Both the position numbers and the translations under genes were made by a program. Below the pieces are notes generated by a model. That model ran no database searches. It saw nothing but the letters and a program-made list of their open reading frames with translations, and was not told the origin of the DNA. A DNA stretch of 64,000 nucleotides from assembly GCF_001659685.2 (NCBI RefSeq), contig NZ_LXYE02000060.1, positions 1 through 64,000 on the forward strand, read 5' to 3'. Of the stretch, positions 1,586 through 60,783 are shown one piece after another. The DNA comes from Labilibacter marinus (GTDB taxonomy: Bacteria; Bacteroidota; Bacteroidia; Bacteroidales; Marinilabiliaceae). Position 1 is the stretch's first letter, and the number at the start of each line of letters is the position of its first letter.

Positions 1586-4500
1586 GCCAAACCATCTTAT
1601 TCAGCCCATTAGACTACTAATTAAGCTAATTATTTGTTGCATTATAGCTTCAACTATGGGACCAAATATTTGGGCTAATCATTACGAGGTAGGCGCTGTT
1701 CGAAGTTTTTCAGGCATTTCTGTAGAAGAAACAAATGTTTCTTTGGCTGATGAATTATTAGAAGAAGTAGAAAGCGTTTCTGAAGCAGAATTAGCTATGG
1801 ATGCAGTAAAATCTGAGATCATAAAGCAAAATCGCTTTGTTAACCGTCTCGATTCAGCATCTTTTTTCTCCTTACCCATTGGCCTTACATATGATACAGA
1901 TACCCTAGCCGACCCTAATTATTTTATTATCATCGATAAGGCCACTATTTATCCCCAATATGCAGAATTTAGTGCGTTTATGTCTATACAAAATCCGATA
2001 GACAATAAAGTAATTCGTTTTAGAGCAGACAATATTAAATTTTCTTTTAAAAGTGGATTGATTGATGGTTTTGAATTAAAGTTAGTGAGTGAACTACGCA
2101 CTAAACTTGGAGAGAGTAGTTATATGTATTGGAAACCAGGAAGTTTTATTAACTGGGATTGTGCAGGTTTTAAAAGTTTAGGAATTAATGCGGCAGTTGA
2201 GCTAAATGAAGAGAAATATAAAAAAGTAGATGTTAATTCGGGTAAAGTAGGAGGTAAGGTAAGAACTGATTTCTTTATATCCGCTTCTAGCCTAAATGAT
2301 ATTGTTTTAGAACTTAGTTTTGAGCCTTTTAAAATTAAGGGATTTGATGAAGCTTACTTTTCATTTGAAAGTATTGTTCTTGATTGTAGCGATACACAGA
2401 ATTCACCCGGCTTTGTATTCCCGTCTGGTTATCCCGGTGGATATACTGGAGATATGGCTGCACTTTGGAGAGGTTTTTATGTAAAAGAGGCTTTAATTGT
2501 GTTAGACGGGAAGTATAAGAAGAGTGATGGCACGTCGACTTCGTTTTATGCCAGAGATTTAATATTAGATGATTTTGGACTGACGGGAGATATGGGGGTA
2601 GAAAATCTTTTATCATATGAGGAAGGAAAACTAGGTAGTTGGGCCATGTCTGTAACTCACTTTGAATTAAGTTTTTTTACCGGTGATTTTAAGAAGTTAG
2701 AATTAGATGGAGGTGTTAAAGTAGATGGTATAGATGATCCGATGAAGTTTGAAGCTTTATATGATGCAGATGGAAATTATCATTTTGGCATTACTCCAGG
2801 TAAAGAATTGCCATTTAATGTTTTTGCAGCCAAAGTGACGCTGGATCCTACATCACGAATTGATGTTTGGGTAGAACAAGGTAAGTTTATGCCAGCTGCT
2901 ACATTAACTGGTGATATCACCTTTGCTTGTGCTTCAAAAGCAGGGGCATCTGATAAGCTTGTTCAAATACCTTATATTGAGTTTCAGGAGATGCGCATAG
3001 CCACTAAAGCTCCGGAATTTGATATTAAATATGTGGCTTTAGCATCCAAAGAGGGAAAGCCTGATTTTAATAATTTTCCTATTGTAATAAAAGACATATC
3101 CTATCAAAAAAGAGGAGATGGCGTTGGACGGTTTGGATTTGATATTTTCATCAACCTTATACCGGCGGGCGAACTTGGAATTTCGGGAGGTACGGAGATA
3201 GGTATTGTAGCAGACCTAAGTAAAGGAAACTGGAAATTTAAGGGAATAGAAGTAGGAGCAATTACTATTGAAGCAAGTGTAGAAGGCTCGTTTGATATAA
3301 AAGGGACTATAGCATTTATTGAAGGAGACCCAATATACGGTAAAGGGTTTAGAGGAGATGTAGACGCCACTTTTGCTGAGACTTTTAATTTAAAAGCAAT
3401 TGCCGTTTTTGGTAAAGTAGATGGTTTTAGGTATTTCTTTGTTGATGCATTTTTACACGCAAAAGGTGGAGTCGGTGCTCATCCTTTTATTATGACTGGT
3501 TTTGGAGGTGGTTTGTTTTATAAAATGAAACAAGTCAACGAAGGAGAGGGTTCTAAATTCGGAGAATCACTTTCCGGTGTAACTTATGTACCAAGTTCGA
3601 ATGATTTTTTAACGATAAAAGCTGGATTAACCGCTGCTATAGTAAATGAAGAGTTGGTGAAATGCGAGGCCTCATTTACCATTGAGTTTACGTCATCGTT
3701 CGGAATAAAGAGGATACTCATCTTAGGTGAGGGAAGTGTTATTAATCTTAGTATAGAAGTATCTGAAGAGCAAATAAAGAAAATTACAAAGAATGTAGTA
3801 AAAGGGGAGTCTATCAAATATGAAATTCCTTCTCCAATAACTATGTCTGTATCTATATTAATGGATGTCGAGAATAGCACTTTTCATAGTGAGATGGAAC
3901 TTTATATAAATGTTGCAGGAGTTCTTAAGGGAGTTGGAGAAAGAAATAGAGCAGGTTGGGGAGTACTGCATATCGACCCAGATAAATGGTATTTACATAT
4001 GGGTACTCAAACCGATCCTATAGGTCTAAACTTTATTGGTTTGATGGAGGTTAAATCGTATTTCATGGCAGGCCATGATATCCCTGATGCTATGATGATG
4101 AACCAGCGTGTACTAGAGATTCTAGACATGGATCAGTCCGAATTTAATGGAGAACGAAAAGATGGAGAGCTAATAACGGGTAAAGGATTAGCTTTTGGAG
4201 CACATTTTAAATTTGATACTGGGGATTTAACCTTCCTTATTTTCTACGCTAAATTTGAACTTGGAGGTGGCTTTGATATCATGTTATTAGATTATGGTCC
4301 TAATGTTTTCTGTAAAGGTCGTTCTGGATTACCAGGGATTAATGGTTGGTATGCTAAAGGGCAAGCCTATGCCTACTTTGCAGGAGAAATCGGTATCAAA
4401 GTCAAAATCTTTGGTAAAAGAAAGAAATTTGATATTATAAATATTCAAGCAGCGGCAGCCATTCGAATGGAAGGGCCAAATCCAACCTGGCTAATGGGAG

Positions 4501-6116
4501 TTGTAGGTGGAAAGTATCGCATTTTAGGAGGTATGATTAAGGGTACTTGTAAGTTTAAAATGACGGTGGGTGAAAAATGTGAATTAAGAACTGCAAAGGA
4601 TCTTTCCGACCTTGAAATTATTGCCGACCTAACACCTGCCAAAGACGCGGAAGAAGTAGATGTATTTACCATGCCTCAAGCTGTATTTAATATGCCGGTA
4701 GATAAGGTGCTACATATTTCGGAGGATCCAGAATTAACCAAAACTTTTAAAATTAATCTTAATGAGTATGCTGTATACACTGAGGATGGAAGTAAGTATC
4801 CTGGGGAAATAGAGTGGAATGAGGACAAAACATCCTTGGCATACCGAATTCAAGAAATATTCTATTCAAACTCTACCTATAAAATAGTAGCAAAAGTTAG
4901 CTTCGATGAAAAAGTTAATGGTGAATGGCAACAGTATAAAGGTGATGATGGTAAAGTATATTACGAAACTAAAGAAGCCACCTTCAAAACGGGCAATCTT
5001 CCTGAAAAGATTCCTAATGATGCCATTGCATATTCTTATCCAATTGATAGAATGGTTAACTTTTATAAAGAGGAGTACAATAAAGCTTATGTTGCTTTTA
5101 ACCCTGGGGTAGCACCATTCTTTGAAAATACGGATGGTTATACTCAAAAGGCAAAATGGACAGAAGTTAATGGAGAATCAATGTATTTACCTGTTAAATA
5201 TAACAAAGATTCAAGAACCGTTGAGACGGATGTTCCTTCTGGTATATTGAACGGTAAAATTTACCGTTTCGATTTGGTGCATAAACCAATATCGAATGAT
5301 GCTTCAATAGATAGGAATGTAATAGAGAATAATGAACAAGCTATTAATGATGAGGAAGGAAATAGTGCTGAAGTAACTACACGTGAAGCTATCGGTGTTA
5401 TAAACGATGGTGAAGAAATAGATTTTTGGGGATTAGATTTTAGATGTAGTAAATACAATAAGTTTTTAGATAAAATTAATTACAATGAATTGAATGTACA
5501 ATTTTTATATAATATGAAAGTTGCCGTTGATTTTCCAGGGGTTACTATCCAGGCTGATGAGGTTTTTGATAAATATGAAATTAGTGGTTCAAATAATAAT
5601 TCACCGTTGATAGTGCACTCTGCCATTCTTGAACAATCTGATTGGTATTTATCTACATATGCAAAAATGATTTATAATAATTACCCATTGCATGACGATG
5701 CTAAAATTACTTGGCGTGAAACAAATGTAGATGGCATACCACCTGTTAAAAAGATTGATATCTGGCAAGTCGGATATAACGCGTTGCTTACTGATGGTGC
5801 GATATCGAGTGGTACTTATATTTCACCTGCTCAGGAATACCATATTGTATATACATTACCAAAATTATGGGCTGATGATTATGTTGATATAAGAAATAAA
5901 CTATCCAATCTGGTGGATGCGGGAATGATACCAAATAATTCGCAGGTTGACAAGATAATAAATACGTACCCCTGGCCTCAAGTGAGTAAAGGAAATTACC
6001 CTTACAAGCTTGAATATACTTTACCTGGAACGGGAAGAGTAACAAGTACGAAAGAAATTAATCTAATTAACAAATTTGATTTCGGTCAAGTAAACTTTAA
6101 AGAAAATGAATTGTAA
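1575..6116 (+). CDS. Giant exported protein with Ig-like domain (1513 aa)
   Basis: The signal peptide is hydrophobic around residues 12-35 and ends near WANHYE. Residues about 100-1000 are beta-rich, with many Gly-rich strands and no family I can name. Residues about 1028-1140 look like a bacterial Ig-like (Big_5/SbsA type) domain. I chose the ATG at 1575 over 1566 because it gives an 11-bp overlap (ATGAACTTTAAG across the previous stop) that matches the arrangement at the next junction (ATGAATTGTAAG at 6106). No T9SS C-terminal domain is visible. Position in the operon suggests a surface or periplasmic partner of the SprB-repeat protein. Function unknown. Confidence 0.85.
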   Translation: MNFKPNHLIQPIRLLIKLIICCIIASTMGPNIWANHYEVGAVRSFSGISVEETNVSLADELLEEVESVSEAELAMDAVKSEIIKQNRFVNRLDSASFFSLPIGLTYDTDTLADPNYFIIIDKATIYPQYAEFSAFMSIQNPIDNKVIRFRADNIKFSFKSGLIDGFELKLVSELRTKLGESSYMYWKPGSFINWDCAGFKSLGINAAVELNEEKYKKVDVNSGKVGGKVRTDFFISASSLNDIVLELSFEPFKIKGFDEAYFSFESIVLDCSDTQNSPGFVFPSGYPGGYTGDMAALWRGFYVKEALIVLDGKYKKSDGTSTSFYARDLILDDFGLTGDMGVENLLSYEEGKLGSWAMSVTHFELSFFTGDFKKLELDGGVKVDGIDDPMKFEALYDADGNYHFGITPGKELPFNVFAAKVTLDPTSRIDVWVEQGKFMPAATLTGDITFACASKAGASDKLVQIPYIEFQEMRIATKAPEFDIKYVALASKEGKPDFNNFPIVIKDISYQKRGDGVGRFGFDIFINLIPAGELGISGGTEIGIVADLSKGNWKFKGIEVGAITIEASVEGSFDIKGTIAFIEGDPIYGKGFRGDVDATFAETFNLKAIAVFGKVDGFRYFFVDAFLHAKGGVGAHPFIMTGFGGGLFYKMKQVNEGEGSKFGESLSGVTYVPSSNDFLTIKAGLTAAIVNEELVKCEASFTIEFTSSFGIKRILILGEGSVINLSIEVSEEQIKKITKNVVKGESIKYEIPSPITMSVSILMDVENSTFHSEMELYINVAGVLKGVGERNRAGWGVLHIDPDKWYLHMGTQTDPIGLNFIGLMEVKSYFMAGHDIPDAMMMNQRVLEILDMDQSEFNGERKDGELITGKGLAFGAHFKFDTGDLTFLIFYAKFELGGGFDIMLLDYGPNVFCKGRSGLPGINGWYAKGQAYAYFAGEIGIKVKIFGKRKKFDIINIQAAAAIRMEGPNPTWLMGVVGGKYRILGGMIKGTCKFKMTVGEKCELRTAKDLSDLEIIADLTPAKDAEEVDVFTMPQAVFNMPVDKVLHISEDPELTKTFKINLNEYAVYTEDGSKYPGEIEWNEDKTSLAYRIQEIFYSNSTYKIVAKVSFDEKVNGEWQQYKGDDGKVYYETKEATFKTGNLPEKIPNDAIAYSYPIDRMVNFYKEEYNKAYVAFNPGVAPFFENTDGYTQKAKWTEVNGESMYLPVKYNKDSRTVETDVPSGILNGKIYRFDLVHKPISNDASIDRNVIENNEQAINDEEGNSAEVTTREAIGVINDGEEIDFWGLDFRCSKYNKFLDKINYNELNVQFLYNMKVAVDFPGVTIQADEVFDKYEISGSNNNSPLIVHSAILEQSDWYLSTYAKMIYNNYPLHDDAKITWRETNVDGIPPVKKIDIWQVGYNALLTDGAISSGTYISPAQEYHIVYTLPKLWADDYVDIRNKLSNLVDAGMIPNNSQVDKIINTYPWPQVSKGNYPYKLEYTLPGTGRVTSTKEINLINKFDFGQVNFKENEL

Positions 6117-9100
6117 GTTTAATAATTTAAGGGTTACATTAGTTAGAGTTATTATTGTAGTTTGCTTATTGTTTTTTATAAAAATAGCAAATGCTCAAGA
6201 TCCTGTAAAATATTACGTTAAATTTCATTATGAATTTTATGGACTTGATTTAAGTAAGTATACGGTAAATCCAATTTCCTTCTCAGGACCTGGAAATTTA
6301 ACTTGGCATCACTCAAACCATACAGATATTGGAAGTGATTATGTATTGGGAAATGAAAGTATTGTAATGGAATCTCTTCCATCTAATATTTCATATTCTT
6401 ATAATGTTTTTGACAACAATTCATTTTCACACATAGAAAAAAATGATCCGTCGCAAGGAGATGATAGTTGGATTTTATGTGATAATGCTTACCTAAGTGG
6501 AGATGGTTTCCTTGAAGTTTCGTATAAACCAATTTTTAATGGAATTATCATTAATGATAGAATAGCTTGTGGCGATAATCCTATTAAAATTATACTTGGT
6601 CAAACTTCGAACCAGCTTTGTGGTGTTGATATTGAAGTAACAAATATTACTCGAATAGATCACTCTGTTATTATTGAAAATTGTACTGTGCATGATGACG
6701 GTGGCTATAAAGTAGCGTATATTAATGCTAATAAACTACCAGATAATACATGGTTAAATACGGAACTAGAGATTTCTGTAAAAAATCCAGAAGGTGCGGG
6801 TGAAGATTGTAATGTTATTAATGGCATTTATTTTTTACCAGAACCTAGTTTTTCAATAAGTAATACAACTCCCCCAACATGTTATAATACAAAGGATGAT
6901 CAAATCACTATAAGTAATTTACAAGTATCTAATGTTCCAGGGCGAGTACTAAGGTTAGATATTACTAAACTTTCCAATGAACCAGTTTCAGGATGCCCTA
7001 ATACAGAATATACTGTTGATGAATATCCTGATTCAACTTTTTATTGGAGTGGGCAAACAACAATACCGATTACAATTACAAACTCTGAAATAACAATACC
7101 TACTCAACTAGGTGTTGGAGCCTTTGCGGTTAAAGCATTTTATTATGATGGAAGTAATAGTTCCCTTTGTCCTGTAATTAAAACGGATTATTTTCACAAA
7201 GAGGAACTAAAACTAAGTATGGATGCCCCAACAGAATACTCAACTAGTGATGGAACTAACAAATCGTATCAGATTCCAAAATATAATAACACCATAACAA
7301 TAAGTGGGGCTATTTCAGGAAATCAAGGTTCTACTGAATTGTTTTATAAAAAGAATGGTGGAGCACAACAAGGAGCAATTTTTAATAATACCGAGTTTGA
7401 CCAAGGCTCTTATGAATTCTATGTTACAGATAATGCAGGATGTAAAAGCAAACCTATTAACTTATCATTTGTAAAACCCGAGGAAGTTAAGGCAACAGTT
7501 ACTCCCTATAATCCAGATTGTCATGAGAATAATACTTCTACACCTGCGAAAAAGTTGGGTAAAATTACTGTTAAAGTGACGGAAGGTGGAATACCAAACT
7601 TTTCTGCAACATTATCATGTTCAAGTCCGGTTTATTCTTCAACCCAAAGCTTTGGTTTAAACTCAGAACAAGAGTTTTCAGACCTTGAGCCCGGTACGTA
7701 TAATTTGCAAATTATAGATGAAGGTGGCAAAATAGTACATTCCCAAAATAACATTAATATATCTAGAACTGAATTGGTATTAGGCCTGGATAGTTATACA
7801 AATGCAACTTGTAGTAGTCTTTCAGATGGAACCATTACGGTGCAAGCTAGCGGTGGTATAGGAAGTTATACATACATGATAAATAGTGTTCAGGGAGTAG
7901 CTAATAACAACTTGAGAGGAGGGGCAACATACACGTGCACCGTATCTGATGATAACGGATGTATAGACGATCTAACACAACATATATCAGAACCATCTGT
8001 TTTAAGTGTTGCTTTGAGGTCAAAGGAGCCTTCTTCTTGTTCCGCGGCATATAATGGAAGTATTTCGTATACGGTTAATGGAGGTTGGGATGCAGAATCT
8101 ACTTTTACTGTTTCATATACAAGTGGTCCAACTATTTTTACTGCTGCTGATGTAGATTCAAATGGTAGAAATATAACAATCAATAATCTTAAAAATGGAT
8201 CGTACGTAGTTAATATAGTTAATGCAGCAGGCTGCTCTATTTCATACCCTTTTGATATTGACGTATCGTCAACCCCAATTTCTGTGGCTATTGATGATGT
8301 GATAAAACCATTATGTACCCATACTGTCGATGGCGAAAATAATAGTGGTGAGATAAAGTTCCTAGTTTCAAATGCCCAATTGGATGGAGGTGGATTACTT
8401 AAACTATCTATAGATGGTGGTGAATTTGCTGATTTTAACCCAACAGTTTATAAAGAGGGTCTATCTGGAACTAAAAGATATAATTTTACCTTAAAGGATT
8501 ATGTTGGATGTGAGGCTTCCATTAATAATTATCAAATTGGAGTAGCTCCAAACCAATTGGCCTTTCAAACAGGATATCCAACTTCAAACAATAGTTCTTG
8601 TCTTGAAGGGACCGACGGTGCCATTAACGTAGAATTAGTTGGAGGAAAAAAAACAGGAGGTAGTGATACTGAAAAGTATTTTTATAGTATTAATAATTCT
8701 GATTATACAGAGAATTCTAACAGTTCAGTTACATATTCAGTTCAGCGTACAGATACATATACTATAAAAGTAAAAGATGAAGCGGGTTGTTTTATAACTA
8801 CCGATATTTTAGTGGATTACAATTCAAACCCACTCGAAGCTTTTATTTTGACAATGGAAGAAGAACATTGCGATGCCTCTAACGATGGTGTAATTGATGT
8901 TTCAGGACTTCCAACAAGTTGGGATGGAAACCTTAACTACGATTTAGTAGGTCATCCTAATATATACAACTGGCAAAATAATACTAGTGGTAAATTCGAA
9001 GATCTAAATAAAGGTGTATATACAGTTAAAGTTTCTCATAACGTAAATGGTTGTTCGCACGAAGATGACATAACTGTAGGGAGTAATAATTTGGTTCCCA

Positions 9101-36694: not shown

Positions 36695-37204
36695 ATGCTA
36701 CCCGATATAAATAAAATAAAAGGTATTCACCCAGGAGCTATTCTGAAACGAGAGATTAAAAAGCGAGGTCTGAAAAATAAGGATTTGGCTCTTATGTTAG
36801 ATGAGCATGCTCAAACAATTAGTGCAATACTGAAGGAAAAAAGAAGTGTAAATCCTAAATTATCCATTAGGTTGGGAAAGCAACTAGGTGTGGAAGAAGA
36901 TTATTTTATGCTTTTACAAGCCAGTTATGATGTTAAAAAGGCTTACCAGGAAACGAGCAAAAAATTATTCCCTAACCTAAAATCAATTAGAAAGGCTATT
37001 TTTTGGGATACCGATTTTGATAAAATAGATTGGTTGAAAAATAAGAGAGCTATTATAAAACGAGTTTTTGAAAGAGGAAATGAATTAGAAATTAGTGAAA
37101 TATTAAACTTCTATGGAACTGCAGACGTAAGGCATGAAATAAGCAGTATAGGAAGTAGTTATTTGGATTCTTTTAGCAAGAATGTGGCAAAATATTTACA
37201 TTAG
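36695..37204 (+). CDS. HigA-like XRE antitoxin
   Basis: 169 residues. The N-terminal HTH is of HigA type: IHPGAILKREIKKRGLKNKD, LALMLDEHAQTISAILKEKR, RLGKQLGVEEDYF. The C-terminal half (WDTDFDKIDWLKNKRAIIKR ... ERGNELEISEILNFYG) resembles the segment found in antitoxins that accompany AbiEii-like toxins. It ends two bases before the toxin gene, a tight TA operon, and probably represses its own promoter. In the classical AbiE system the antitoxin is AbiEi; the XRE partner here differs. Confidence 0.8.
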   Translation: MLPDINKIKGIHPGAILKREIKKRGLKNKDLALMLDEHAQTISAILKEKRSVNPKLSIRLGKQLGVEEDYFMLLQASYDVKKAYQETSKKLFPNLKSIRKAIFWDTDFDKIDWLKNKRAIIKRVFERGNELEISEILNFYGTADVRHEISSIGSSYLDSFSKNVAKYLH

Positions 37205-37206
37205 TT

Positions 37207-37857
37207 ATGACCATCTATAAAGAAACAGTTTCAGATTTACTTTGGGATACGCTTAAAAAATTAATGAAGTTTAAAGAACTGGATGCTTTTAGGTTGGTAG
37301 GAGGGACGTCTTTGAGTTTGCTTCTAGGGCATAGAATTTCCGTGGATATTGACTTATTTACAGATGCAGAGTATAAATCAATTGATTTTGATAAGATTGA
37401 CAATTTATTTGAAACAAACTTTAAATACGTAGATTATTGCTTTGGAGGTAATGATAGCATGGGGAAATCATACCTGGTAGGCGCTCATAAAGAAGAAACC
37501 ATAAAAGTTGATTTGTTTTATACTGACCCGTTTCAATATCCAATTGTAAACTATGATGGTATTAGATTATCTCAATTAGAAGAGATAGTTGCTATGAAAC
37601 TAGAAGTTATTGGCAATAATGGAAGAAAAAAAGACTTTTGGGATTTACACGAATTGATGGAGTCTTTTTCCTGGAATGAGATGTTGAGCTTTTATGAAAA
37701 AAGGTATCCTTATAATAACACTAGGGAAGACATTATTAATAAACTGACAGATTTTAGTACTGCAGATACCGACTTAGACCCAATTTGTTTAAGAGAAAAA
37801 CATTGGGAATTAATCAAGTTGGACATAGAAGAATCTATAGCTGAAAATCTGGATTAA
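37207..37857 (+). CDS. AbiEii/AbiGii-type nucleotidyltransferase toxin
   Basis: 216 residues with the NTase-fold signature LVGGTSLSLLLGHR, then SVDIDLFTD (the DxD metal site at about 50-52), a third acidic strand KVDLFYTD, and LEEIVAMKLEVIGNNGRKKDFWDLHEL, all typical of AbiEii proteins. These toxins add nucleotides to tRNA 3' ends or other targets and block translation, giving abortive infection. It is directly downstream of the HigA-like gene. Target unknown. The tRNA connection is notable because an RNA-repair locus lies about 2 kb away. Confidence 0.85.
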   Translation: MTIYKETVSDLLWDTLKKLMKFKELDAFRLVGGTSLSLLLGHRISVDIDLFTDAEYKSIDFDKIDNLFETNFKYVDYCFGGNDSMGKSYLVGAHKEETIKVDLFYTDPFQYPIVNYDGIRLSQLEEIVAMKLEVIGNNGRKKDFWDLHELMESFSWNEMLSFYEKRYPYNNTREDIINKLTDFSTADTDLDPICLREKHWELIKLDIEESIAENLD

Positions 37858-38020: not shown

Positions 38021-39034
38021 CTATTTGTTGTATTGTTCACTGGCTTTTGTAAGCAAATCACTCATTTTTTTCCTTAAAGAAGGAGGAGATAATACTTCCA
38101 ATGCTGGTCCAAAACCTAGTAATAATCGTTCCAATTCATAATTAGGTATTAATTTAATACTGATGATAATTCCATTTTTATTTTGTTCAATGAGTTCCTG
38201 TGTCCAATGAATTGGTTTGGTTAAAACGTAAGGTGCATTTTCTTGGTTAATGGCTAATTTTATTATTCTTGGTACAAGACCATGATTTACGGTAACACCA
38301 ATAATGTTTTCATAATAGGAGTGAGGATGAAAAGTTTCATCCATATTGAATTTAATATTCTCTGCTGGTTGGAAAGATTCAATACGATCCAATGCTAAGG
38401 TGATAATTGATTCTCCTTTTGTTTTTCTGCCCACTAAGAACCATCTATTGTTAAACTCCTTTAATAGATAAGGATGAAAATAGATACGCTGTGCTTTCTT
38501 GGCTTTAAAAGATTTATAATTAATAAGGATGACTTGCTGCTTAAGAATTACTTCGTACAATCCATTTAGATGCTCAAGACCTTTTAACTCTTCGTTGCGT
38601 TCAATATGTATGATTGGACGAGATTGATTTTGCTCAGTATGTATTTTGTTCTCTAATTTCTGTATTAGTCCTGTCATCTCTTTAAAATGACTAAATCCTT
38701 GAAACTGTTTTAAGATTTCTATTGCATCCGTTAGTTTATCTAAGTCCTGATTTGATAAGGGCAAATTTGTAATTGAATAATCAGGATCTTCATAAGTGTA
38801 GTACTTTTTATCGGTGATTATGATAGGAGCATTATATCCCAATTTCTCACTTCGCATGGTTTGAATATCCAATTGAATGGTGCGTTTACTAACCCCTTTG
38901 TCAATTCCCTCAAACTCATATAAAGCATCAGAACAAGTTTCAATTAAATCCTCTAAAGTCCACTTCCTATATCTGTTACGCAAGCATTTATCAATAGTAG
39001 TATATCTAATGAGGGCATTCCTATTAACTGGCAT
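38021..39034 (-). CDS. WYL-domain transcriptional regulator
   Basis: 337 residues. The N-terminal winged HTH (about 1-75, YTTIDKCLRNRYRKWTLEDL ... SKRTIQLDIQTMR) is followed by a linker, a WYL domain (about 155-250, LKQQVILINYKSFKAKKAQR ... FHPYLLKEFNNRWFLVGRK) and a WCX-like C-terminal region. WYL domains bind nucleic-acid-type ligands and often control DNA-damage, defence or RNA-repair genes. It is divergent from the slipin-rtcB operon and a near-perfect operator-like palindrome lies just upstream, so it probably controls that operon, filling the place RtcR holds in proteobacteria. That link is inference. Confidence 0.85.
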   Translation of the reverse strand: MPVNRNALIRYTTIDKCLRNRYRKWTLEDLIETCSDALYEFEGIDKGVSKRTIQLDIQTMRSEKLGYNAPIIITDKKYYTYEDPDYSITNLPLSNQDLDKLTDAIEILKQFQGFSHFKEMTGLIQKLENKIHTEQNQSRPIIHIERNEELKGLEHLNGLYEVILKQQVILINYKSFKAKKAQRIYFHPYLLKEFNNRWFLVGRKTKGESIITLALDRIESFQPAENIKFNMDETFHPHSYYENIIGVTVNHGLVPRIIKLAINQENAPYVLTKPIHWTQELIEQNKNGIIISIKLIPNYELERLLLGFGPALEVLSPPSLRKKMSDLLTKASEQYNK

Positions 39035-39070: not shown

Positions 39071-39095
39071 TACTACGCAAAAAGATTGCGCAGTA
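39071..39095. promoter_or_regulatory. Operator-like palindrome upstream of the WYL gene
   Basis: TACTACGCAA, a 5-bp spacer AAAGA, then TTGCGCAGTA: 9 of 10 positions are symmetric. It lies 37 bp upstream of the WYL start codon and on the path to the slipin-rtcB leader, as expected of an autoregulatory operator. Confidence 0.5.
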
Positions 39096-39300
39096 ACGAT
39101 GAATCTTTGTAGAGTCAATCAGACAAACGTTCTTTGAATACACTCACTTTTGTGATTAAAAATATTTCTTCTCTGTATGAGAGGATAAAGACATGATTAA
39201 AACAAAGTTTCAAGGCTTGATGTAAGTTTCTGTATAGCTTCATAGTATTGGCTTAGTAAAGTTCAATGTGCTACTTGTTTTTTTGCTTTTTTTCATACCC

Positions 39301-39370
39301 GATGTGTGTTGGAGGTTCGAGCCCTCCTTCTGATAAATGTCAGAATAGCTAAAATAGGTAGAGCAACATC
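39301..39370 (+). ncRNA. Circularly permuted tRNA-like element
   Basis: In 5' to 3' order: GATGT (39301-05, anticodon-stem 3' strand), 5-nt variable loop, T-arm GGAGG-TTCGAGC-CCTCC (39311-27), acceptor 3' strand TTCTGAT (39328-34), linker AAAT, acceptor 5' strand GTCAGAA (39339-45), T8 A9, D-arm GCT-loop with GG-AGC (39348-64), A26, and anticodon-stem 5' strand ACATC (39366-70). The acceptor pairs over 7 bp (one G-T), the anticodon stem over 5 bp, the T-stem over 5 bp, all with canonical spacing. No canonical tRNA start or CCA exists. The alternative is the junction of two decayed tandem tRNA genes. It lies in the leader of slipin-rtcB. Confidence 0.55.
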
Positions 39371-39395
39371 TCTAATTGGTAAGGTCGCAAGACTA

Positions 39396-39410
39396 CAGGT
39401 TCGAACCCTG
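39396..39410 (+). ncRNA. Second isolated T-arm-like hairpin
   Basis: CAGG-TTCGAAC-CCTG is a 4-bp stem with a consensus T-loop, 26 nt after the permuted element. The flanking bases do not make an acceptor or anticodon stem with the D-arm upstream (only about three pairs are possible), so a normal tRNA over 39339-39420 is not supported. Confidence 0.45.
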
Positions 39411-39414
39411 ACTT

Positions 39415-39436
39415 TGAGTTGACTACTCACTTTTTA
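39415..39436 (+). terminator. Weak terminator/attenuator-like hairpin
   Basis: TGAGT-tgact-ACTCA followed by a run of five T (39431-39435). It is placed directly behind the tRNA-like sequences and 262 bp before the slipin gene, where it could end a short leader RNA. The remaining leader (39437-39697) holds no gene I can see. Confidence 0.4.
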
Positions 39437-39697
39437 ACAGTTACATGAAAGTAGAGTGACTAATAGCCAGTATTCATTTTCGGATGATAACAATCTTTGG
39501 CTTACTAGCGAATGAGGTGTAATGATTATTGCGGATAATTACTTACTCTATAGATATGCAATTCAGATTATCGAATTCAATCAATAGATAAACTAATTGT
39601 TCAGAAATAGTGATTCTCTAATTCCCGTTACCAAAGATGGCTTTGTCGCTCTGCTTATTTATTAAATGAATGATTAACAAACTAAAAATACCTAAAG

Positions 39698-40798
39698 ATG
39701 AAACGAATAAGAATAAACAAAGGTAAAATCGGTTTAGTATTTAGAAATGGAGATTATATTAAAATATTAAAAGCTGGTACTCATTGGGTGTGGTTCTTTG
39801 ATAAAGTAGGAATTTGTAATATGTCGCAACCATTTACATTATCTATGGAATTAAACATCTTGTTGCAAGATGAAGAATTAGCCGACATGTTAGAAGTTGT
39901 AGAAGTGTTGGATAATGAATTGGTATTGAAATATGAAAACGGAGTATTCAATGAAGTGCTTAAGCCTGGGCGTTATGCGTATTGGAAAGGATCAACGAAC
40001 TATGCCTTTAAAAAAGTAGATTTAAGTAAGGTAGATATTACCGAAGATATACCTGTAAATATTCTTTATAAAACTGATATTTTTCCTTATGTAAGAATTT
40101 ATCGTGTAGAGTCGTACGAAAAAGGTTTGTTGTTTGTTAATGATAAGTTTATTAAAGAGTTAAACCAAGGTGTATATTGTTTTTGGAAAAATAATACGCC
40201 TGTGCTTGTTATGAAAGCTGATTTGCGTCAGACACAATTAGAAATTTCGGGACAAGAATTATTAACAAAGGATAAAGCAGCGATTCGAATCAGCTTTTTT
40301 GCTACGTATAAAGTAGTAAATGCGATGAAAGCTTTAACAGAAAATCAAGATTATAAGAAGCAATTGCATGTAACGCTTCAGTTAGCTTTGCGAGAATATG
40401 TGGGTACTTTAACCTTGGATGAAATATTGGAGAGAAAAGAGGAGGTGGCTGATTTTATTATGGGTTCCGTACGCGAAAAATCTGTTGATTATGGTATAGA
40501 GTTATCTGATGGTGGTATTCGAGATATTATATTACCAGGGGAAGTTAAAGAAATCATGAATCAGGTATTAGTAGCCCAAAAGAGAGCTCAAGCTAATATC
40601 ATCACGCGCAGAGAAGAAACAGCATCTACACGAAGTTTATTGAATACTGCAAAATTGATGCAGGATAACACAATGCTTTTTAAGTTAAAAGAAATGGAGT
40701 ATGTGGAAAAAATTGCAGATAAAATTAATACTATTTCCTTATCCGGTGGAGGTCAAGTAGTAGATCAGTTAAAGGAGATATTCTCTACTGATAGATAA
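39698..40798 (+). CDS. Slipin / band-7 (SPFH) protein
   Basis: 366 residues. An N-terminal beta-rich region duplicates a motif (KILKAGTHWVWFFDK and EVLKPGRYAYWKG and ELNQGVYCFWKN). An SPFH/band-7 domain follows at about 170-290 (ELLTKDKAAIRISFFATYKV ... REYVGTLTLDEILERKEEV ... GIRDIILPGEVKEIMNQVLVAQKRA). There is no transmembrane helix at the N-terminus, unlike stomatin. Slipins recur beside rtcB in bacterial RNA-repair operons (established by comparative genomics). It lies 158 bp before rtcB on the same strand, so a shared role in RNA repair or stress response is likely; biochemical function unknown. Confidence 0.85.
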   Translation: MKRIRINKGKIGLVFRNGDYIKILKAGTHWVWFFDKVGICNMSQPFTLSMELNILLQDEELADMLEVVEVLDNELVLKYENGVFNEVLKPGRYAYWKGSTNYAFKKVDLSKVDITEDIPVNILYKTDIFPYVRIYRVESYEKGLLFVNDKFIKELNQGVYCFWKNNTPVLVMKADLRQTQLEISGQELLTKDKAAIRISFFATYKVVNAMKALTENQDYKKQLHVTLQLALREYVGTLTLDEILERKEEVADFIMGSVREKSVDYGIELSDGGIRDIILPGEVKEIMNQVLVAQKRAQANIITRREETASTRSLLNTAKLMQDNTMLFKLKEMEYVEKIADKINTISLSGGGQVVDQLKEIFSTDR

Positions 40799-40956: not shown

Positions 40957-42120
40957 ATGAAACAAGTTATATCAACAGAAAACCGACCTATAAAAATGTG
41001 GTTGGACGAAATAGAAGAGAATGCCTTAATTCAGGCAAAAAACATGGCCAACTTGCCCTTTGTACATAAGCATGTTGCCTTAATGCCTGATGCGCATATG
41101 GGTTATGGAATGCCTATTGGAGGAGTATTGGCTACCAAAGGAGTTATTATTCCCAATGCGGTAGGCGTTGATATTGGTTGTGGTATGTGCGCCATGCGAA
41201 CCAATATAGATGATGCTGATTCTGATACATTAAAACGTATTATGAGTCAAATACGAAAGCTGATTCCTGTAGGATTTAATTGGCATAAAGAGGTTCAGGA
41301 TGATAAATACATGCCAAGTATGGATGAATTACCCTCAATCGTTGAACGACACATAGATAAAGCAAAAAAACAAATAGGCTCTTTAGGAGGAGGGAATCAC
41401 TTTATAGAAATACAACACGGGTCCGATGGTTATATCTGGGTAATGATACATTCTGGAAGTAGAAATTTGGGGAATCAAGTTGCTCAATTCTACGACAAAA
41501 AAGCGAAAGCCCTAAACGAACGCTGGCACGCTTCAGTTCCAGCTTCATACGACCTAGCATTTTTACCCATCGAAACGGATGAAGCACATGCTTATATGGA
41601 AGAGATGAATTACTGCGTAGATTTTGCTTTTGCTAACCGTAGTTTAATGATGGAGCGTGTGCAACATGCTTTTCAATCAGTTATAAAAGGAGAAGTGGAG
41701 TTTGATGAATTAATAAACATTGCCCATAACTATGCTGCTTGGGAGAATCATTTTGGCGAAAATGTGCTGGTTCATCGCAAAGGGGCAACCAGAGCACGTT
41801 TAGGTGAATTAGGTATTATCCCTGGATCGCAAGGAACAAAATCGTATATCGTGGAAGGTTTAGGCAATCCAGAAAGCTTTGAGTCATGCTCGCATGGTGC
41901 AGGTCGTGTAATGGGACGAAAGCAAGCGCAACGAGAATTAGATTTAAATACCGAAATCAAACGTTTGGATGACAAAGGAATCATTCACGGCATTCGCCAT
42001 AACAAAGATTTAGATGAAGCTGCGGGTGCTTACAAAGATATTGATACCGTAATGGCCAATCAGAAGGATTTAGTGAAAATAAAAGTGGAGTTGGAGCCTT
42101 TGGCAGTGGTGAAGGGATAG
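40957..42120 (+). CDS. rtcB: RNA-splicing ligase RtcB
   Basis: 387 residues from ATG 40957; an in-frame TTG at 40939 is less likely. RtcB joins 2',3'-cyclic-phosphate or 3'-phosphate ends to 5'-OH ends through a GMP-His intermediate, using GTP and Mn. Conserved blocks are DAHMGYGMPIGGV, NAVGVDIGCGMCAM (metal Cys), GSLGGGNHFIE, HSGSRNLGN and CSHGAGRVMGR, whose His (about 313) is the guanylylated residue. Length and motifs are complete, so it should be active. No archease, RtcA or RtcR lies nearby. Together with the WYL regulator, slipin and tRNA-like leader it forms an RNA-repair locus, possibly countering tRNA cleavage by toxins. Confidence 0.95.
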   Translation: MKQVISTENRPIKMWLDEIEENALIQAKNMANLPFVHKHVALMPDAHMGYGMPIGGVLATKGVIIPNAVGVDIGCGMCAMRTNIDDADSDTLKRIMSQIRKLIPVGFNWHKEVQDDKYMPSMDELPSIVERHIDKAKKQIGSLGGGNHFIEIQHGSDGYIWVMIHSGSRNLGNQVAQFYDKKAKALNERWHASVPASYDLAFLPIETDEAHAYMEEMNYCVDFAFANRSLMMERVQHAFQSVIKGEVEFDELINIAHNYAAWENHFGENVLVHRKGATRARLGELGIIPGSQGTKSYIVEGLGNPESFESCSHGAGRVMGRKQAQRELDLNTEIKRLDDKGIIHGIRHNKDLDEAAGAYKDIDTVMANQKDLVKIKVELEPLAVVKG

Positions 42121-60526: not shown

Positions 60527-60600
60527 GGACCTGTAGCATAACTGGATAGTGCACTGCGTTACGGCCGCAGAGGTTAGGGGTTCGAATCCCTTCAGGTTCA
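60527..60600 (+). tRNA. tRNA-Arg (anticodon ACG), copy 1
   Basis: 74 nt. Acceptor GGACCTG / CAGGTTC, D-arm GCAT..GTGC, anticodon stem CTGCG / CGCAG with loop TTACGGC (anticodon ACG), T-arm AGGGG-TTCGAAT-CCCTT, discriminator A. CCA is not encoded. Confidence 0.95.
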
Positions 60601-60606
60601 CAAGAA

Positions 60607-60684: not shown

Positions 60685-60758
60685 GGACCTGTAGCATAAC
60701 TGGATAGTGCACTACGTTACGGCCGTGGAGGTTAGGGGTTCGAATCCCTTCAGGTTCA
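60685..60758 (+). tRNA. tRNA-Arg (anticodon ACG), copy 2
   Basis: Differs from copy 1 only in the anticodon stem, CTACG / CGTGG: one compensatory pair change and one Watson-Crick to T-G change. The same anticodon loop TTACGGC and all other arms are kept. Confidence 0.94.
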
Positions 60759-60783
60759 CTTTTACATAATTGAATGTAGCAAA

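Follow-up and report, generated by a model that had tools for sequence, protein, structure and literature searches.

An mRNA leader that imitates tRNA to control an enzyme acting on tRNA is known from thrS of E. coli; it mimics anticodon arms rather than a permuted tRNA body, and its likeness to the RNA described here is drawn at the level of general description. The Y RNA YrlA (RF02553), encoded beside rtcB, has its T-arm, closed acceptor and D-arm in permuted order together with an open anticodon stem, and is described in the available text of its report as a tRNA-like domain on a basal stem (PMC8394870). In Salmonella, the regulated operon rsr-yrlBA-rtcBA joins such a tRNA-like RNA and the RNA ligase RtcB; it is under RtcR control, includes a Ro60 orthologue and RtcA and, according to the portion of the report available, responds to and is activated by tRNA fragments (PMC7790460). 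A slipin gene enters the picture in Anabaena, where one repressor acts on a tRNA array (the trn operon), rtcB and a slipin gene, but the genes of this TrcR regulon are dispersed and the accessible text mentions no tRNA-like leader RNA (PMC10272220). Similarly, the rtc locus of Pseudomonas aeruginosa PA14 includes PaFlo8, a gene for an SPFH-domain protein, among those for RtcA, RtcB and RtcR, again with no leader RNA mentioned in the text at hand (PMC13086221). Finally, tmRNA joins a tRNA-like part to pseudoknots and is a target of RtcB in E. coli, the ligations being reported in the pseudoknots in what is available of that study (PMC9650030).

The locus described here lies in a stretch of 64,000 nt from Labilibacter marinus (contig NZ_LXYE02000060.1, assembly GCF_001659685.2), referred to below as the window. 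As in the Rtc repair operons, RtcB and a regulator stand beside a tRNA-like RNA. However, RtcR and RtcA were absent beside RtcB (open reading frame list for 35-45 kb, and Pfam on eight of its proteins), a divergent WYL-domain regulator and a slipin being found instead (Table 1). The slipin is 89% identical to that of a Saccharicrinis MAG, its nearest relative with a name. Adjoining the WYL gene, at 36695-37857, are an HTH/DUF6922 protein and then an AbiEii-type nucleotidyltransferase, which resemble a type IV toxin-antitoxin pair. Between the WYL gene and the leader RNA sits an operator-like palindrome. In its strict form it precedes slipin in 38 of the 80 relatives, whose upstream DNA amounts to 227 kb, against two occurrences in 308 kb of downstream DNA. 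The palindrome is a putative operator to which the WYL regulator is predicted to bind, and transcription would start directly behind it, giving a leader of up to about 590 nt.

Table 1. Features of the leader RNA and of its neighbouring genes in the window.
Feature	Position	Strand	Basis
WYL-domain transcription regulator, divergent	38021..39034	-	Pfam WYL 44.1 bits, WCX 40.9 bits
Operator-like palindrome TACTACGCA-N7-TGCGCAGTA, ahead of leader	39071..39095		Sequence and relatives
5′ domain with helices P1 and P2 and conserved GUUUCUGUAU loop	39213..39278	+	Model R2, 72 bits, E 4.8e-19 (window itself in R2 training set, as L001)
5′-domain helix P1	39220-39226 with 39238-39243	+	Alignment of relatives
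5′-domain helix P2	39246-39250 with 39264-39268	+	Alignment of relatives
Permuted tRNA module T1	39301..39370	+	Geometry, Rfam YrlA match, covariation, covariance model
T1 anticodon stem, GATGT/ACATC, 5 bp	39301-39305 / 39366-39370	+	Read from sequence
T1 variable loop, 5 nt	39306-39310	+	Read from sequence
T1 T-arm, 5-bp T-stem	39311-39327	+	Read from sequence
T1 acceptor, 7 bp including one G-U	39328-39334 / 39339-39345	+	Read from sequence
T1 linker, 4 nt	39335-39338	+	Read from sequence
T1 T8-A9	39346-39347	+	Read from sequence
T1 D-arm, 3 bp and A-G mismatch	39348-39364	+	Read from sequence
T1 base 26	39365	+	Read from sequence
Second T-arm, 4 bp, rudiment of module T2	39395..39411	+	Sequence read and relatives compared
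H-type pseudoknot	39415..39443	+	Complementarity with permutation test
Pseudoknot S1	39415-39419/39425-39429	+	Complementarity
Pseudoknot S2	39420-39424/39439-39443	+	Complementarity
Slipin (SPFH / Band 7) gene, constant neighbour of the RNA	39698..40798	+	Pfam Band_7 112.9 bits
RtcB RNA ligase gene	40957..42120	+	Pfam RtcB 399.8 bits

An earlier, sequence-only reading of this DNA had described the leader of a slipin-rtcB operon as holding a permuted tRNA-like RNA, which is borne out by its structure, by covariation and by the Pfam assignments of the genes. All of the strands and spacings it described are present, exact to the base, in T1, with the order anticodon 3′ strand, variable loop, T-arm, closed acceptor, T8-A9, D-arm and anticodon 5′ strand. 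The extent it gave, 39301..39436, holds for 39301-39370, while 39371-39436 consists of the second T-arm and most of the pseudoknot and falls outside the permuted tRNA. The module is also incomplete as a description of the RNA, being part of a much larger conserved structure that starts at or before 39213.

A strict geometric finder gave a single match on both strands of the entire window, exactly at T1. The same finder recovered a module in 54 of 95 relatives' leaders (800 nt each, at least nine of the 95 duplicating another). In the controls it matched one of 1900 dinucleotide shuffles and nothing in 95 reverse strands or 75 downstream segments. With a covariance model built from 17 sequences, none of them titled Bacteroidales, T1 of the window scored 56.9 bits (E 1.4e-15 in 152 kb), the next-best match in the window being one of 16 bits at the second tRNA-Arg gene. 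There are two such genes in tandem, both tRNA-Arg(ACG), at 60527-60601 and 60685-60759. In alignment A1, whose 24 modules were picked out of 69 leaders by the finder and thus favour the acceptor, T-stem and D-stem pairing which it requires, 93.5% of cells are paired and 18 of 21 pairs have two-sided changes, including seven of seven in the acceptor. Its covariation score is 0.713, against 0.240 when shuffled and at most 0.216 with strands slid. The anticodon stem, which was no selection criterion, is 85% paired in A1, with all five pairs changed on both sides. The paired strands are therefore kept in homologous leaders through compensatory changes, and because a model without sequences titled Bacteroidales finds the window and 18 of 21 pairs change on both sides, T1 is more than a chance arrangement.

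Folded in isolation, the sequence has a minimum free energy of -39.4 kcal/mol (z -2.0), and at this minimum the closed acceptor hairpin is kept, the T-stem is extended to the second T-arm and no permuted tRNA is formed. Taken alone, the single-sequence fold goes against the permuted reading and is overruled by the covariation. ARAGORN predicted no tRNA at the leader site, and the Rfam tRNA family (RF00005) reached 16.8 bits there (E 1.5), under its cut-off of 29 and with no complete cloverleaf. An ordinary tRNA at 39339-39419 was considered and rejected, as its 3′ acceptor strand is not kept in relatives and overlaps pseudoknot S1, and as ordinary pairing fits merely 8 of the 67 leaders with an acceptor call. 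The proposal that the open anticodon stem is a site of ligation was left without support: YrlA has the same opening as the joint to a longer stem, and 49 of the 82 sources have a further module (second match to model R1, at least 20 bits) that begins no more than 10 nt from T1.

The 5′ domain has two helices which are conserved among relatives. In alignment A2 (46 of 65 extracted sequences, not chosen on pairing, the omitted ones being mostly Flavobacteriia with longer inserts and close copies), 99.0% of cells are paired and 10 of 11 pairs have two-sided changes, with slid controls at 23-65%. RNAalifold found little in the region before T1, and segment alignments were used instead. The domain is the sole strong R2 match in the L. 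marinus genome (E 4.7e-18, the next being E 0.19). It was found ahead of slipin in 82 of 87 sources, of which 46 are training sequences including the window and the weakest are L082 (19.4 bits) and L100 (21.2 bits). T1 follows 12-54 nt behind it in every one of the 82. No R2 match was obtained in sources L035, L048, L049, L050 and L053, the leader of the last being 226 nt long. In L048-L050 the palindrome lies about 170 nt before slipin with no RNA, and in L048 and L049 a tRNA-Tyr gene occupies the place where the leader RNA would be, possibly an ancestral or reduced arrangement.

When the 5′ domain was searched alone in 395 Bacteroidota genomes with stricter filters, 18 had a match and 17 of these had slipin and T-arm hairpins behind it, the L. 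marinus genome being included in both counts. The exception is a weak match of 25 bits in L145, with neither slipin nor T-arms. It is therefore the whole RNA, and not the module alone, that is tied to slipin. An exact pattern of the 5′ motif had no matches in viral contigs, a weak test in that the pattern itself recovers just 32 of 166 loci.

Many relatives have a second permuted tRNA in the position of T2, and behind it there are frequently one or two anticodon arms. Counts for this part of the RNA refer to 70 leaders, that is 96 leaders minus 17 without a T-arm pair and nine copies. A hairpin of the anticodon-arm type (5-bp stem, 7-nt loop) follows T2 in 49 of the 70, against 184 of 3500 mononucleotide shuffles, although the 49 include chance-like matches (for instance in the window and L007) and some acceptor hairpins. 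Such arms are missing in the other 21. The window and its family are without tRNA-type arms, the sole match of the arm scan in the window having no tRNA-type loop. With the amino acid assigned from the anticodon, the commonest arm loops are those for Lys (12), Asn (8), Leu (7), Phe (5), Asp (4) and Met (4). There are 16 RNAs with two arms, at least eight of them from Flavobacteriaceae and hence not independent, in which the first arm carries U36-A37-A38 in 13 cases and the second A36-A37-A38 in 14. By comparison, among the 177 tRNA genes of the same loci U36 is present in 39 and A36 in 58. We take these two triplets to be the signatures of t6A and i6A sites respectively.

The second stem of the pseudoknot is supported by complementarity in 36 of 70 leaders (51%), against 19% with downstream strands permuted (maximum 33%, 1000 permutations), in a test which selects on stem 1 and linker only, in which several rows took wrong sites and which 34 of the 70 leaders fail. 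A scan for the best-pairing pseudoknot gave a score of at least 20 in 68 of 70 leaders, yet shuffles also did so in 27 of 70. Alignment A3 misaligns several rows and was left uncounted. Just before the slipin start codon, at about 39625-39650, there is a conserved CCGT...AGATGRT stretch, seen also in L005, L041, L044, L056, L100 and L109, which is a probable 3′ domain of the RNA, judging from sequence.

The gene content around slipin is variable in the relatives. Of 80 loci, 47 have RtcB no further than 3 kb downstream and 33, some of them at contig ends, do not; a divergent WYL gene precedes slipin in 29. The gene that the RNA constantly adjoins is slipin, and not RtcB or WYL. RtcB was sought elsewhere in 13 genomes, of which L099 was dropped, as its RtcB adjoins slipin. 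Ten of the 12 counted, which are without an adjacent downstream RtcB, have the gene elsewhere, and two are without any RtcB. Four Flavobacteriia (L097, L100, L104, L106) carry it on the same strand, 2.8-10.7 kb upstream, two genomes have it about 19 kb (L094) and 22-28 kb (L089) upstream, and in four it is on another contig. The geometric finder gave no permuted module at any of the 20 RtcB loci returned, and a looser palindrome was present in seven of these (L156 and L165 being one place). The contigs of L097, L100 and L104 (L148/L162, L153/L160 and L152/L163) each have two RtcB-family matches of two score classes, which share the strand of the tRNA array or slipin and precede it by 2.8-10.7 kb.

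Three downstream regions without RtcB were annotated, namely those of L108, L094 and L104. Behind the slipin of L108, at 3364-6261, there is an RNA-repair cassette consisting of a T4-type RNA ligase, RlaP and a PNKP-like protein; KptA and a macro domain were found in L094, and two RlaP matches in L104. In a way reminiscent of the Anabaena regulon, many of the Bacteroidota relatives have tRNA genes beside the slipin locus, real tRNA genes being found upstream of slipin in 43 of 80, as many as 16 of them in L110. The Flavobacteriia L097, L110, L111, L113, L101, L102, L104 and L105 have 8 to 16 predicted tRNA genes arrayed upstream of slipin.

The pointer of the sequence-only reading to Y RNAs proved apt, YrlA being the only strong Rfam match. 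It covers 39288-39388 of the window with 31.4 bits (E 7.9e-5), where the gathering score is 69 bits, and the best relative reaches 45.9 bits. The permuted tRNA-like domain of YrlA (T-arm, closed acceptor and D-arm) is present in the leader, as seen from both the model match and the covariation. The alignment of the window spans the whole model, but the middle stem is mostly deleted on both sides, leaving no long basal stem of the type that binds Ro60. In eight relatives, matches on leader modules are confined to the tRNA-like part, the widest covering model positions 18-91 of 114, and the Ro stem is unmatched. An exception is the leader module of L055 at 2537-2649, which matches the full YrlA model (1-114) with 43.5 bits. 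The leader also differs from YrlA in being a larger RNA, to which a conserved 5′ domain, a pseudoknot and in many cases a second module belong, and in having slipin as its neighbour. As regards tmRNA, Rfam matches in relatives are at most 20 bits against 47 and are mostly T-arm pieces of 17-18 nt, with none in the leader of the window.

No Ro60 (TROVE) protein was found in the L. marinus genome, nor in 43 of 49 genomes with the RNA (39 of the 49 are without a completeness figure), and it is present in the other six. In L063 the order is Ro60 gene, further YrlA-like modules, palindrome and leader, and in L055 it is Ro60, one YrlA-like module, tRNA-Cys and leader. The upstream YrlA-like copies (L063 1820-2069, L055 2082-2153) share a GCCGTAG...TTACTTCG start, not seen in the leader, which may be the Ro-binding strand. 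These copies fall under the Rfam cut-off and are apparently real Bacteroidota Y RNAs. Weak matches to the Deinococcus Y RNA also lie beside Ro60, at 1381-1519 of L063 (34.7 bits) and 590-729 of L129 (34.2 bits; cut-off 80), while L127, L128 and L129 have YrlA-like modules within 1.5 kb of Ro60 genes that are remote from the slipin locus. No Rfam 15 family matched the leader of the window at its cut-off and no published description was found in titles and abstract starts or, for the terms searched, in PMC2864571; the claim of novelty extends no further than this. YrlA already provides a known case of the permuted tRNA body, while the whole RNA may merit a class of its own.

Several other explanations of the leader were weighed. 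Decay of a tandem tRNA array would account for the real tRNA genes upstream in relatives and for model R1 also scoring tandem tRNA genes, with up to 57 bits in the L. marinus genome. It would likewise fit the Rfam tRNA matches in ordinary order, which exceed the cut-off of 29 in eight of eight relatives (nine partial matches, 29.2-36.7 bits) and also in L033, L034, L041, L043 and L044. Nevertheless, such decay is scarcely credible, since 61 of 67 leaders close the acceptor of T1 in permuted order with no more than one mismatch, against the eight in which ordinary pairing (with the T2 strand) is possible, and five of these eight pairings are weaker than or different from the permuted one. The control in which 3′ strands were swapped between leaders gave 399 of 1320, a figure that is high owing to the kinship of many leaders and to the permitted loop lengths of 3-40 nt. 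The prospect that relatives would show ordinary tandem tRNA genes here was thus largely dispelled. ARAGORN finds no tRNA in the window-family loci L001-L011, and both 5′-domain helices and the module spacing are kept across the phylum, unlike in decay. The halves of T1 are ordered as in the permuted tRNA genes of red and green algae, and with RtcB encoded downstream it could be imagined that nuclease cuts in the anticodon region and ligation by RtcB yield a circular precursor, from which trimming produces a working tRNA. This is very improbable, as the acceptor of relatives often has 6 bp and a loop of 3-5 nt, the window has no anticodon loop around the break and the acceptor stem drifts freely, with changes on both sides of each of its seven pairs.

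It is also improbable, if less so, that the leader is an ordinary member of the YrlA family which Rfam has missed. The match in the window, the shared genomic theme of rtcB, the full-length match in L055 and the Ro60 gene and YrlA-like modules just upstream of the leader in L055 and L063 all speak for membership. However, every YrlA match seen is under the gathering score, those in eight relatives are limited to the tRNA-like part, Ro60 was found neither in L. marinus nor in most of the genomes with the RNA, and in L063 the leader stands apart from the other YrlA-like copies and lies downstream of them. We conclude that the leader module and YrlA have either an origin or a shape in common and that the leader is a separate RNA which persists without Ro60. 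The main rival for its function, as slipin is the only constant neighbour, is that an RNA processed from the leader acts in trans as a Y-RNA-like scaffold on slipin, forming a membrane-bound RNA-repair particle in which the tRNA-like end would recruit an enzyme, and the 5′ domain and pseudoknot would bind the slipin assembly in the stead of Ro60. In support of this, the 5′ domain is elaborate and strongly kept, and YrlA tethers a Ro60-like protein to PNPase, as given in the available text (PMC8394870). Against it, the RNA sits ahead of slipin in the sources examined, as a cis element would. To our knowledge, slipins have no known RNA-binding surface, and on balance we regard the scaffold as rather unlikely.

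The reading preferred here, put forward tentatively and at somewhat less than an even chance, is that the leader is a tRNA mimic which is bound or cut by RNA-repair or tRNA-cutting proteins, the output of the operon following the load of damaged tRNA. The operator ahead of the leader RNA would control its synthesis, and transcription would continue into slipin and rtcB as one unit. T1 offers the tRNA elbow, formed by the T- and D-loops, but with its acceptor closed by a short loop it is not a mature tRNA. RNA-repair or tRNA-cutting proteins may then bind or cut the mimic, which would serve as a sensor or decoy, autoregulation by titration being included. This is favoured by covariation in the module, in the 5′ domain and in pseudoknot S2, and by the position of the RNA between the palindrome and slipin in the window and before slipin in the relatives. 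It is further favoured by the RNA-repair genes in the vicinity (RtcB or, in the annotated regions without it, other repair proteins), by the anticodon-arm-like hairpins of relatives and by two precedents, tmRNA as a substrate of RtcB and the Salmonella operon, whose authors have suggested, in the accessible text, that YrlA may inhibit an anticodon nuclease (PMC7790460; PMC8394870). It is opposed by the 33 of 80 loci with no RtcB within 3 kb downstream, by the lack of the module at the 20 returned RtcB loci and by the 21 of 70 leaders that are missing anticodon arms, the natural target of an anticodon nuclease. A further point against it is that YrlA fragments were undetected in Salmonella, and YrlA is therefore not cut by the nuclease, in the part of the report that is available (PMC7790460).

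More broadly, and with slightly greater reserve still, the leader may belong to a new, slipin-linked class of large structured RNAs in the Bacteroidota. Its members would consist of the 5′ domain, a permuted tRNA body or two, two anticodon-arm mimics in a set order, and a pseudoknot. Such an RNA would display artificial pieces of tRNA to nucleases, modifying enzymes or ligases and thereby measure tRNA damage or modification, with slipin as the partner that replaces Ro60. RtcB operons are widespread, and the persistence of a tRNA mimic tied to slipin in many genomes with no detected Ro60, the known protein partner of YrlA, offers a natural deletion that separates a role as a Ro60 tether from one as a sensor of tRNA damage. 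The lineages which have the RNA and lack Ro60 include cultured species, and the anticodon arms added in relatives give concrete predictions as to which tRNAs are watched.
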